Shown piece by piece: positions 11,871 to 24,507 of a stretch of DNA of 24,507 nt; position 1 is the stretch's first letter; each line of letters begins with the position of its first letter. The notes under the pieces were generated by a model. It had not been told where the DNA came from. It ran no database searches and saw nothing but the letters and a program-made list of their open reading frames with translations. Position numbers and translations under genes: made by a program. The DNA lies in IMG/VR virus record IMGVR_UViG_3300033998_000442, positions 1-24,507 of that record. One strand, written 5' to 3'. The DNA comes from a virus.

Positions 11871-12038
11871 CTAAAATCTAACTTTACTCCCACATTCACT
11901 ACACATAATTAAAATCTCCTTTGTGTCGCTAATAACTATGTTAAATTTCTCTGTTATCTTATCATATTCTATGCCATTTTCTAAAATTAATCTTTGTCCA
12001 CAATTACTGCAGACAAGAATAAATTCTCCTTTATCCAA
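11871..12038 (-). CDS. 55-residue zinc-ribbon protein, TTG start
   Basis: The frame encodes MDKGEFILVCSNCGQRLI at the N-terminus, a central DKITEKFNIVISDTKEI segment and IMCSECGSKVRF at the C-terminus. C10-x2-C13 and C46-x2-C49 form a classical four-cysteine zinc ribbon, one knuckle at each end. The TTG at 12038 has GGGGAG 6 nt upstream. It lies 21 nt after the 12060 gene and 19 nt before an intrinsic terminator, so it is the second gene of a two-gene unit starting at the LexA-box promoter. Function unknown; it may bind nucleic acid or a protein partner. Confidence 0.7.
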   Translation of the reverse strand: MDKGEFILVCSNCGQRLILENGIEYDKITEKFNIVISDTKEILIMCSECGSKVRF

Positions 12039-12059: not shown

Positions 12060-12323
12060 TTATTGTATGTCAGTTAATACCCACTTATATGTATCTGTAT
12101 CAAAGGTTATATCAAATTTTAAAATTTCATCTTCAATCTCGCTTTCACAAGAAAATTTATAAACTTCTTTTCCTTCTAATTCTTCTTTGTTTACTTTATT
12201 TATTTTTTTAACCTTTATTGCCTTTAACTCATCGTTTACTTCAAATCCAAATTTAACAGGATAGGATATTCCTTTCAAGTTTATACTGTCAATCATTTTA
12301 ATTTCTTTTCCTATTACCATCAT
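12060..12323 (-). CDS. LexA-promoter-controlled small protein of unknown function
   Basis: I do not recognise this 87-residue protein. It alternates basic stretches (KAIKVKKINKVNKEEL) with acidic beta-like strands (CESEIEDEILKFDITFDTDTYKW), with no signal peptide or membrane span; a small beta-rich soluble fold is likely. The ATG at 12323 is preferred, since GGGGTG lies 6 nt upstream; ATG 12320 is equally possible, and the GTG at 12332 lies within the binding site. Its promoter (12354-12382) holds a perfect LexA-type box, so it should be expressed after DNA damage. It heads a two-gene unit with the zinc-ribbon gene. A part in prophage induction or in modifying the host SOS response is plausible, without direct evidence. 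Confidence 0.7.
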   Translation of the reverse strand: MMVIGKEIKMIDSINLKGISYPVKFGFEVNDELKAIKVKKINKVNKEELEGKEVYKFSCESEIEDEILKFDITFDTDTYKWVLTDIQ

Positions 12324-12353
12324 ATTCATCACCCCATAATTTTATATAATAAC

Positions 12354-12382
12354 ATTTTATACGAACATTAGTTCGTTGTAAA
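12354..12382 (-). promoter_or_regulatory. sigma-A promoter with LexA box in the spacer (SOS promoter)
   Basis: On the - strand TTTACA (12377-12382), a 17-bp spacer and TAAAAT (12354-12359) make a near-consensus promoter. The spacer holds ACGAAC-TAAT-GTTCGT (12361-12376), a perfect 6-4-6 palindrome that contains CGAAC-N4-GTTCG, the LexA (DinR) box of Gram-positive bacteria. Bound LexA would block polymerase. The start point would fall about 25 nt before the first start codon. Confidence 0.85.
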
Positions 12383-20099: not shown

Positions 20100-20639
20100 T
20101 TACCCTAAAATATCTTCTTCATCATCATTAATTGCTGTAAAATCATCTTCAGCTCTACTTCTTCCGCCTAACGGCTCTCCATCTTCTAGCTTTTGAAGGT
20201 TTTGAAGACCACAGGCAATTCCTTTATTACCATTAGCATTATAGGCATAAAACACGATAGAAGCTCTTCCATAGCAGCCTGAATAAAACTCTGTTTGGTC
20301 TAATATTGGCTCTACATTTTTATCTACAATACCAGGTTTTGTAGTGCTATTTGCATTTACAAAATAGCTATCTTTATAAGCTTCATCATCGGCTCTATCT
20401 ATATCCCCATCACGAAGGGGAGTTTTTAAATTTGCTGGTATCTTACCTCCAAGCTTTGCTATCCCTTCCTTTTTAGCAGTTTCTATGGCTGCTCTAATTT
20501 TTCTTATTGTTTCTTTATCTGTTTTTGGAATGATAAGGCTTACTGAATATTTTGGGTCGCTTCCATTAATGCTTTTTGGCTCCCACACATTTGCATAGGA
20601 AAATCTTACTTTTCCTGTAATTACTTTTGTATTTTGCAT
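20100..20639 (-). CDS. DUF2815 single-stranded DNA-binding protein
   Basis: The 179-residue protein matches DUF2815, an OB-fold family related to T7 gp2.5: KVRFSYANVWEPK near the start, YSVSLIIPKTDKETIRKI, LRDGDIDRADDEAY, FVNANSTTKPGIVD and IVFYAYNANGNKGIACGLQNLQKL. A short acidic tail (DDEEDILG) ends the protein, as in SSB proteins that contact partners by an acidic C-terminus. It probably coats single-stranded DNA for the adjacent polymerase and may promote annealing. The ribosome binding site is AAGGAG. It lies 20 nt after the DUF2800 gene and 4 nt before the polymerase gene. Confidence 0.93.
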   Translation of the reverse strand: MQNTKVITGKVRFSYANVWEPKSINGSDPKYSVSLIIPKTDKETIRKIRAAIETAKKEGIAKLGGKIPANLKTPLRDGDIDRADDEAYKDSYFVNANSTTKPGIVDKNVEPILDQTEFYSGCYGRASIVFYAYNANGNKGIACGLQNLQKLEDGEPLGGRSRAEDDFTAINDDEEDILG

Positions 20640-22671: not shown

Positions 22672-22920
22672 TTAGTCATTAACTTTTAGTTGTATTTTCT
22701 TTTTATTTTTATCACTATCAGTTGTATTTAAGGGTAAAAAAATATCTTCAAGTGAACATTTGTATAACTCTACCATCTTTAAGGCCAATTCAATACTCGG
22801 CTTCTTATATCCTCCTTCCATTTGATAAACCATACCAGTGCTAATATTTAGTTTTTTAGAAACTTCTTTAGCCGTTTTATAACCTGCCTTTTTTCTTAAA
22901 TCTGTAAGATGATTTCCCAT
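22672..22920 (-). CDS. Cro-like XRE regulator
   Basis: The 82-residue protein has an N-terminal helix-turn-helix (LRKKAGYKTAKEVSKKLNISTGMVYQMEGGYKKPS, about 8-42) and a compact helical end (LALKMVELYKCSLEDIFLPL). It lacks a long oligomerisation domain, as in Cro-type proteins. It is divergent from the CI-like gene and preceded by AAGGAGGTGAG. The codons for its last 17 residues hold two copies of the putative operator (22680-22727), so coding and binding sequence are shared. It would act as the lytic-side repressor of the switch. Confidence 0.9.
   Translation of the reverse strand: MGNHLTDLRKKAGYKTAKEVSKKLNISTGMVYQMEGGYKKPSIELALKMVELYKCSLEDIFLPLNTTDSDKNKKKIQLKVND
22680..22727 (+). promoter_or_regulatory. 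two operator-like repeats inside the cro-like gene
   Basis: TCACTATCAGTTGTAT at 22712-22727 is identical to the copy at 23051. TAACTTTTAGTTGTAT at 22680-22695 matches it at 13 of 16 positions. The two start 32 bp apart, about three helical turns. They fall in the 3' coding end of the cro-like gene, where a repressor could bind downstream of the leftward promoter. Confidence 0.55.
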
Positions 22921-23128: not shown

Positions 23129-23485
23129 ATGTTAGGTAATGTTATTAAAGAATTAAGGAAAAAACACAAGATTACCCAAGCTGAATTGGCTAATAAAATA
23201 GGCGTTACCACCTCATCTATTGGTATGTACGAAACTGGGGTTAGACAACCTAGTTATGATGTACTATGTAAATTGGCAGAGTATTTTGATGTTTCAGTGG
23301 ATTATTTGCTTGGAAGAAAGTCAGATACTAATAAAAATAAAAGTAAAAAAAATAATTTTGCCGATTTAGATCCTGCTTATTTTAGGCTTTCTAAGGAAGC
23401 TCAAAAAGAGGGTATTTCTCCTGAAGACATTAGATTGGCAATTGATTTTATCAAAAGATCAAGGGAAAAAATTAAAGGTGATTAA
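23129..23485 (+). CDS. CI/ImmR-like XRE repressor
   Basis: The 118-residue protein has a canonical HTH_3 domain: LRKKHKITQAELANKIGVTTSSIGMYETGVRQPS (about 8-42), LAEYFDVSVDYLLGRK, a Lys/Asn linker and a helical C-terminus (SPEDIRLAIDFIKRSREK). It has no LexA-type S24 peptidase domain, so it cannot cleave itself. The ImmA-like peptidase 5 nt downstream probably inactivates it, as ImmA does for ImmR in ICEBs1. The ATG at 23129 has AGAGGTGA; a GTG three codons earlier sits on that site. It should maintain lysogeny by binding the 16-bp repeats and/or the dyad on its own promoter. Confidence 0.93.
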   Translation: MLGNVIKELRKKHKITQAELANKIGVTTSSIGMYETGVRQPSYDVLCKLAEYFDVSVDYLLGRKSDTNKNKSKKNNFADLDPAYFRLSKEAQKEGISPEDIRLAIDFIKRSREKIKGD

Positions 23486-23490
23486 CGACA

Positions 23491-24507
23491 ATGGTAATAA
23501 AGGGCTTTATAGAACCTGACTTTCTTAGAACGATTGTTGAAAATAAACTTAAATCTTTAGGAATTACTAGAAAAGATTATCCACTAAAATCTAGAGATAT
23601 TATTGATTTATATTGTCAAAAAGGTGAATTAGAACTAGAGTACATTCGTTTCAATTCAATAAAAATTGGAGGCATCTTATATAAAGACCCACGAAAAAGT
23701 TTTATGGCTCTAAATTCTAACCGTTCTAAAAAGGGTCAAAATTTTGATGGAATGCATGAGTTAATACACTTTTGGTTCCATCCCTATACTGAATATTTTT
23801 GTAATGATAACAACCGAAAAGTTTTTTACTATAAAGGTTTTGAGTGGCAAGCTAATGAAGGAGCTGCAATAGCTTTAATGCCTGAAGACCTTTTTATCGA
23901 AAAGTATATTGCTTTCAATGGCGAAATAAGTGCTCTTTCAGATTTCTTTTTAGTAGGAGAAATGGCAGTTGTTTATAGAATGATAAATTTAGGGCTAGAT
24001 GATAAGTTTGTTTTTCTACAAGATTCTAATCGTGATATTTTAAAACAGTATAACGCTCTTATATGTCCCGTATGTCATAACTCAGAAATTAATATCAATT
24101 CTCTGTATTGCAGTATTTGCGGTCAATTTTTAGATGCCTTGATAATTAAGGAGGATGATTACTTGATATATAATGATGGTGTACAGATGGATGAAAATAA
24201 AAAAATGGTAAAATGTCCTCGCTGTGATAATAAAGAGTTTAGTAGCAATGCTAATTTTTGTAGAATATGTGGACTAGCTACTCAAAATAAGTGTGAGGGG
24301 TATTATGATCAGGATTTTGACGAGTATATTGAACATGACTGTCCTGGAAATGCAAGATACTGCGAAATTTGTGGAAGACCAACTACCTTTTTTAAAGAGG
24401 GTGTTCTTAAACCTTGGGATAAAGCTAAAAAGGAATTAGATTCTATAAATGATAATCCATTTAATGAAGCAGCCGTAACTGATTATGATTTTGATATTCC
24501 ATTTTAA
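23491..24507 (+). CDS. ImmA/IrrE-family metallopeptidase with C-terminal zinc ribbons
   Basis: The 338-residue protein has an M78 peptidase domain (about 10-170) with HELIH (89-93) and the downstream FEWQANEGAAIALMPE segment, where E118 or E123 may complete the zinc site. The usual E-x-E-A-[ND] reads E-W-Q-A-N here, a possible variation. The C-terminal half carries three zinc-ribbon-like units: C192-x2-C195 with C207-x2-C210, C242-x2-C245 with C257-x2-C260, and C268, C284, C291-x2-C294. It follows the repressor by 5 nt and ends at the window edge with a stop codon. It probably cleaves the repressor on an induction signal; the ribbons may sense that signal or bind a partner. Confidence 0.93.
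   Translation: MVIKGFIEPDFLRTIVENKLKSLGITRKDYPLKSRDIIDLYCQKGELELEYIRFNSIKIGGILYKDPRKSFMALNSNRSKKGQNFDGMHELIHFWFHPYTEYFCNDNNRKVFYYKGFEWQANEGAAIALMPEDLFIEKYIAFNGEISALSDFFLVGEMAVVYRMINLGLDDKFVFLQDSNRDILKQYNALICPVCHNSEININSLYCSICGQFLDALIIKEDDYLIYNDGVQMDENKKMVKCPRCDNKEFSSNANFCRICGLATQNKCEGYYDQDFDEYIEHDCPGNARYCEICGRPTTFFKEGVLKPWDKAKKELDSINDNPFNEAAVTDYDFDIPF

Follow-up and report, generated by a model that had tools for sequence, protein, structure and literature searches.

A putative prophage switch peptidase with three zinc ribbons and an SSB-like C-terminal tip

Main finding

In a 24,507-nucleotide virus contig (IMG/VR record IMGVR_UViG_3300033998_000442, positions 1 to 24,507; hereafter the window), we found that the ORF at 23491-24507 (+) encodes an ImmA/IrrE-type (M78) peptidase that is followed by three zinc ribbons and ends in DFDIPF, a motif that matches the C-terminal tip of bacterial single-strand DNA-binding protein (SSB). 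The gene lies directly downstream of a CI-like repressor gene, and its product probably destroys that repressor. Among 60%-non-redundant proteins, 31 of 62 M78 proteins with the ribbons and 6 of 8 stand-alone ribbon proteins end in this way, compared to 0 of 58 M78 proteins without ribbons and 2 of 943 other gene-like ORFs. These data suggest how some dormant phages could notice DNA damage.

The peptidase and its immunity region

To ask whether the gene is intact, we examined the reading frame and its domains. The ORF is complete, from ATG to TAA, and encodes 338 aa. Pfam searches placed Peptidase_M78 at residues 48-163 (23632-23979 (+); E 5.3e-12, above cut-off) and DZR double zinc ribbon at residues 192-261 (E 6.8e-7, above cut-off). 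Twelve Cys form ribbon 1 (C192, C195, C207, C210; 24064-24123 (+)), ribbon 2 (C242, C245, C257, C260; 24214-24273 (+)) and an atypical ribbon 3 (C268, C284, C291, C294; 24292-24375 (+)). All twelve Cys are invariant in 7 of 7 sequences in our first alignment; in a wider alignment, some members have no Cys but a His near the place of C284, and 'C or H' is the safer description there (ligand geometry was not measured). The ribbons are followed by helices and a flexible linker (residues 296-332; 24376-24486 (+)) and by the tip (residues 333-338; 24487-24504 (+)). The observation of an earlier note, that an ImmA-like peptidase is fused here to three zinc-ribbon units, holds. Its description of almost half the protein as cysteine-rich is a little generous, since the ribbons span residues 192-295 (31%), whereas everything after M78 is about half. 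The note did not mention the C-terminal tip.

Directly upstream of the peptidase gene is a CI/ImmR-like HTH gene (23129-23485 (+); HTH_3, E 3.7e-19), the presumed substrate. Its ORF opens at GTG 23120, but ATG 23129 is the likelier start, and the C-terminal part of the product is weakly SinI-like (E 1.1e-5, below cut-off). It faces a divergent Cro-like HTH gene (22672-22920 (-)). The same layout, an antirepressor/Cro gene facing a repressor, then the peptidase and often an integrase, occurs in Latilactobacillus phage TMW 1.706 P1, Bacillus phage SDFMU_Pfc, Streptococcus phages Javan249 and Javan235 (Javan235 has no integrase within the stretch examined), and prophage-like regions of B. glycinifermentans and Cytobacillus plasmids. 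Since the window ends with the peptidase gene, the sequence downstream was not covered. When we looked at 62 ribbon-tailed peptidases, 60 had an upstream ORF, and in 58 of these 60 loci (window included) an HTH_3 gene lies directly upstream.

The earlier note also proposed that EWQAN (residues 118-122; 23842-23856 (+)), found in place of the usual E-x-E-A-[ND], may change activity. A change in activity is not supported, and we reject EWQAN as a functional defect. HELIH (residues 89-93; 23755-23769 (+)) is intact, with H89, E90 and H93 invariant in 50 of 50 aligned sequences, and Q120 is the norm of a whole M78 lineage with HELIH..EW[QE]ANEGA. E118..N122 aligns with E-T-L-C-N of IrrE and with E-A-Q-A-D of CapP, so that CapP has Q at the same place and the conserved Glu is kept; this Glu is the third metal ligand in M78 peptidases, although coordination was not examined in atomic coordinates. 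Structure prediction of the complete protein, which the note had put forward as a check, gave an AlphaFold2 model (47 sequences, mean pLDDT 83.4) that matches CapP (7t5t; Z 14.9, 159 aligned, rmsd 3.5), PprI with ssDNA (8sln; Z 12.9, 156 aligned, rmsd 3.2) and IrrE (3dti; Z 12.5, 159 aligned, rmsd 3.5) over residues 1-189. PprI is activated by ssDNA, and the same is reported for CapP (PMC10904395). In contrast to IrrE/PprI proper, we found no C-terminal GAF-like domain: residues 184-338 carry the Cys4 ribbons and short helices in a model of mean pLDDT 88, and there is no GAF match at E up to 1.

The ribbon module is exchanged between peptidases

Ribbons 2 and 3 form a module of about 80 aa with invariant C-C-C-C-N-C-R-C-C-G in 31 of 31 tails aligned. 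A search of viral contigs with the single window protein found nothing, whereas a search with part of these tails found 55 viral loci in IMG/VR. In a cultured-phage collection, 4 of 50,697 records carry the module by two further module queries. In all loci together (60% non-redundant, loci numbered L001 onwards below), we classified proteins with HMMs and counted 62 with M78 and the module, 8 with the module alone and 58 with M78 alone; three proteins matched neither HMM and were left out, giving 128 of 131 counted. One protein that a regular expression had placed among tip-bearing M78 proteins without tail (L184) is ribbon-tailed by this classification. In contrast, the long ribbon-tailed peptidases of L161 and L167 (481 and 485 aa, no tip) escaped the regular expression and are not among the 62; counting them would give 31 of 64 with the tip. 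The ribbon cysteines are not a chance arrangement: the pattern C..C-C..C-C-C..C is kept in 70 of 70 tail-bearing proteins, partly by construction because an HMM selected them. A search for the fold of the module gave no informative PDB match, and a missing match shows nothing. Some copies differ in ribbon number. Peptoniphilaceae and related copies (L042, L044, L074, L075, L079-L084, 431 aa; L011, 473 aa) have 8 CxxC, i.e. extra ribbons in the tail, and EW[QE]ANEGA-lineage M78 proteins of 249-259 aa (L113, L116, L117) have a single short ribbon and no C-terminal module.

To determine whether the module moves between peptidases, we compared the M78 and tail parts separately. L135 (EWQAN lineage) and L190 (HEIGH lineage) share 72% over 223 aa of tail but have different M78 domains, while L135 shares 62% identity over its M78 part with L151, which has no ribbons. 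In the tail tree, L135 with L190 and L132 with L015 pair at 100/99 across lineages, although this tree has few columns and many of its forks are open. In the M78 tree, the window protein sits with L132 and L133 among ribbonless EWQAN proteins, away from the 57 other ribbon proteins. A single clade of all 62 ribbon-tailed M78 proteins has AU p 0.033, which is borderline against one origin of the tail. One origin within the EWQAN lineage (five ribbon proteins) is not rejected (p 0.4), so we do not claim three independent gains there, and our conclusion that the ribbon and tip module recombines between M78 lineages rests on the L135/L190/L151 and L132/L015 comparisons. Loss of the ribbons in relatives had been named in advance as evidence against a role for them, and it is found in part: close M78 relatives without ribbons exist, so the ribbons are modular, yet where ribbons are present their Cys are kept.

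The tip is enriched on ribbon proteins

The window protein ends VTDYDFDIPF, and residues 328-338, the last 11, are disordered in the model (pLDDT below 50). Published SSB tips are DDDIPF (E. coli) and DDDLPF (S. aureus; PMC5531588). Host and phage SSBs recovered from our loci end similarly (DDSDLPF, DDGRIPF and the like) in 9 of 10; an SSB frame was found for 10 of 22 loci and the others were not examined further. The window protein has the acidic residues followed by [IL]-P-F at the very C-terminus of a flexible tail, but it has no OB-fold domain (no PF00436 match at E up to 1).

To quantify the tip, we required [DE]x(0-2)[ILVFM]P[FY] at the end of the protein. The counts given above correspond to Fisher p 6e-13 against M78 proteins without ribbons and 1e-45 against other ORFs. 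The two other ORFs that end this way (L146:556-1194 (-) and L154:15-608 (-), ending DDDLPF / EDDLPF) are both phrog_18107 proteins of unknown function and are candidate phage proteins with an SSB-like tip. In contrast, a phage Gp2.5-like ssDNA-binding protein in the window (20100-20639 (-); phrog_112, E 7.7e-72) ends DDEEDILG, acidic but without PF. Among the 70 tail-bearing proteins, conservation rises only in the last four residues: P at -2 in 44, F at -1 in 41, L/I at -3 in 41 and D/E at -4 in 36. Information per column is flat (about 0.4-0.7 bit) up to -6 and rises to 2.2 and 2.0 bits at -2 and -1, whereas ribbonless M78 proteins show no such rise. Among the 55 loci found with the ribbon module alone (the query ends before the tip), 53 had an ORF and 32 of those end in the tip, redundancy included. 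In Latilactobacillus phage TMW 1.706 P1, a phage of this family, the tip is EALPF.

The tip stays at the terminus when the tail changes. The distance from the last CxxC to the end varies from 26 to 139 residues among 37 tip proteins, and in L132 and L015 a domain of about 100 aa intervenes between ribbons and tip. This extra domain (L132:4856-5266 (+), L015:4826-5239 (+)) hits PF11490 (PolC N-terminus II) only below its cut-off (E 6.8e-3 and 3.3e-4), and we treat it as a lead. Of seven loci with a ribbon-tailed peptidase plus a second ribbon protein, in four (L101, L160, L161, L167) only the second protein bears the tip and in L169 both do; however, in L027 the peptidase has the tip and the second protein does not, and in L007 neither passes the rule. 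In both L161 (3409-4620 (+)) and L167 (3357-4559 (+)), a TcmP gene (three-Cys-motif partner, TIGR04474) directly follows the stand-alone ribbon and tip gene.

The tip is not universal. Of the 62 fused proteins, 31 lack the strict tip. Some near-misses end PF without a nearby acid (NSPF, NNLPF, NGLPF), and three end PFD or PFI (L073, L165, L190), which should spoil a free terminal Phe. By lineage, the tip is found in 28 of 46 proteins of lineage a, 2 of 5 of lineage c and 1 of 11 of lineage b (RRLNFT motif, mostly Clostridia genomes; L101, L102, L105, L106, L109, L112, L114, L076 and others). Of the five EWQAN relatives with ribbons (window included), only 2 have it. Among six close Peptoniphilaceae copies the tip shows no special codon constraint, but the data are too few to be informative. 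Nevertheless, the tip is absent from 58 of 58 ribbonless relatives.

A model for the switch

Taken together, these data are best explained, with middling confidence, by an ImmR/ImmA-type lysogeny switch of a temperate Bacillota phage, in which the CI/ImmR-like repressor keeps the phage silent and the adjacent metallopeptidase destroys or disarms it. In this view, the C-terminal half of the peptidase is an exchangeable docking module whose flexible acidic tail copies the SSB tip and probably binds the SSB-tip pocket of host genome-maintenance proteins. In B. subtilis, the SSB C-terminus is the docking site for at least 12 such proteins, and PriA, RecG, RecQ, RecO, RecJ, DnaE, SbcC, RarA, XseA, Ung, YpbB and YrrC bind it (PMC3000357). 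The peptidase would be held at exposed ssDNA or stalled forks, ssDNA there would switch it on, and cleavage of the repressor would induce the prophage without a RecA-cleavable CI. Our analysis demonstrates the fusion, the intact active-site residues, the repressor next door, the fold kinship to ssDNA-activated peptidases, the enrichment of the tip and the exchange of the module; that the tip binds host proteins, that ssDNA activates the peptidase, that the repressor is cleaved and that the prophage is induced are inferences. Neither tip binding (including the binding pockets) nor repressor cleavage or induction upon DNA damage was assayed here, and no experiment shows that this peptidase cleaves the repressor; Rir of S. 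thermophilus disarms its repressor without cleavage (PMC7907104). In S. aureus, SsbA does not stimulate PriA and SaPriA lacks the known pocket (PMC5531588), so partners may differ. A broader reading is tentative, somewhat less likely than not, but is not excluded: a widespread class of prophage switches would sense host replication and repair by imitating SSB, docking repressor-destroying peptidases onto the SSB interactome and reading ssDNA or fork distress without RecA, and in some members the extra domain resembling the PolC N-terminus II region would add a second replisome contact.

The interpretation in the earlier note, that the ribbons may turn the peptidase into a sensor of nucleic acid, redox state or a small protein, is partly supported: the ribbons are an added module on an ImmA-like peptidase next to a CI-like repressor, and a sensor or docking role is the best reading. 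The note also suggested a zinc-ribbon protein under LexA control as a speculative partner. An exact LexA/DinR-type palindrome, GAACATTAGTTC, does lie at 12363-12374 (0.18 expected), about 30 bases upstream of a 90-aa ORF (12060-12332 (-)), which precedes the 55-aa two-CxxC protein (11871-12038 (-)). Neither product has a confident family match, and beyond this SOS-like box we found no evidence that links them to the peptidase.

Alternative explanations

Among the alternatives, all of which we consider unlikely, direct nucleic-acid sensing survives best. The ribbons could bind ssDNA (or RNA) themselves, with the acidic tip as an intramolecular tail that covers that surface until DNA displaces it, as with acidic tails of SSB-type proteins. 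PprI senses ssDNA with residues of its peptidase and C-terminal domains (PMC10904395), the ribbons occupy the place of that C-terminal domain, and the ribbon-1 region is basic on average in the family (+3.5). However, ribbons 2-3 are net acidic (family mean -3.5; window -3), the ribbon-1 region of the window protein is acidic too (-5), and no known nucleic-acid-binding fold matched the module. We therefore favor a protein-docking or spacer role for the ribbons, without excluding direct DNA binding for relatives with a basic ribbon 1.

A redox/zinc switch, in which oxidation of the ribbon cysteines changes the fold or releases zinc next to the active site and switches the peptidase on, is doubtful. 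The module has 12 conserved Cys, and IrrE is proposed to be activated by zinc released from cysteine thiolates on oxidation (PMC7907104); however, this reading does not explain the SSB-like tip, the stand-alone ribbon and tip proteins or the exchange of the whole module between peptidases. Equally doubtful is an ordinary ImmA-like antirepressor with a structural or dimerising tail, in which the PF ending is a family quirk without partner binding. Half of the fused proteins lack the strict tip and M78 relatives exist without any ribbons, but the sharp conservation of only the last four residues, the absence of the tip from ribbonless relatives and its retention after an inserted domain and on split genes argue against this. 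Least likely, the tip could serve to compete with host SSB for repair proteins (counter-defence or recombination control in the lytic cycle), with its link to the peptidase secondary, as the stand-alone ribbon and tip proteins might suggest, but the gene sits in the immunity region right behind the repressor in 58 of 60 loci and 7 of 8 stand-alone copies lie directly behind a ribbon-tailed peptidase gene (the eighth, L199, lies behind a separate HExxH fragment).

Relation to known systems

How ImmA-type peptidases learn of stress is stated as unclear (PMC7907104) and was still open in 2025, when activation by ssDNA alone or by another protein on ssDNA was proposed for pneumococcal ImmAR prophages (PMC12637031). 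A recurring SSB-tip mimic on such peptidases names a concrete partner set, the SSB interactome. It would also be a case of SSB mimicry used for signalling, and it marks PHROG 19315 and the stand-alone ribbon and tip proteins as linked to genome maintenance. ImmA-type switches are already known, and what differs here is the ribbon module and the tip; in the literature we examined (including PMC10904395, PMC12637031, PMC6872733, PMC7907104, PMC9030533, PMC5531588, PMC3000357 and PMC10164576, with few subscription papers), we found no description of an ImmA-type peptidase with either. The statistics are strong, whereas the mechanism is a hypothesis.

The window protein belongs to PHROG 19315 over residues 58-319 (E 1.6e-34), and stand-alone tails also match this family, for which the library gives no function or tip. 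It shares with the bacterial SSB C-terminus an acidic-[IL]PF ending in a disordered tail, but here the ending is carried by a peptidase and zinc-ribbon protein. As in ImmR/ImmA of ICEBs1 and the phage repressor/M78-peptidase pairs (MpaR of Listeria, Rir of S. thermophilus), an HTH repressor gene is followed directly by an M78 (DUF955/COG2856) peptidase gene with HExxH; induction in those systems is by repressor cleavage or disarming (PMC6872733), and no ribbon module or SSB-like tip is described for them in what we read. Finally, the window protein shares the fold of CapP (of CapH/CapP) and of PprI/IrrE (with DdrO) over about residues 7-189; however, where the C-terminal part of PprI is a GAF-like domain, the window protein has zinc ribbons plus the tip.
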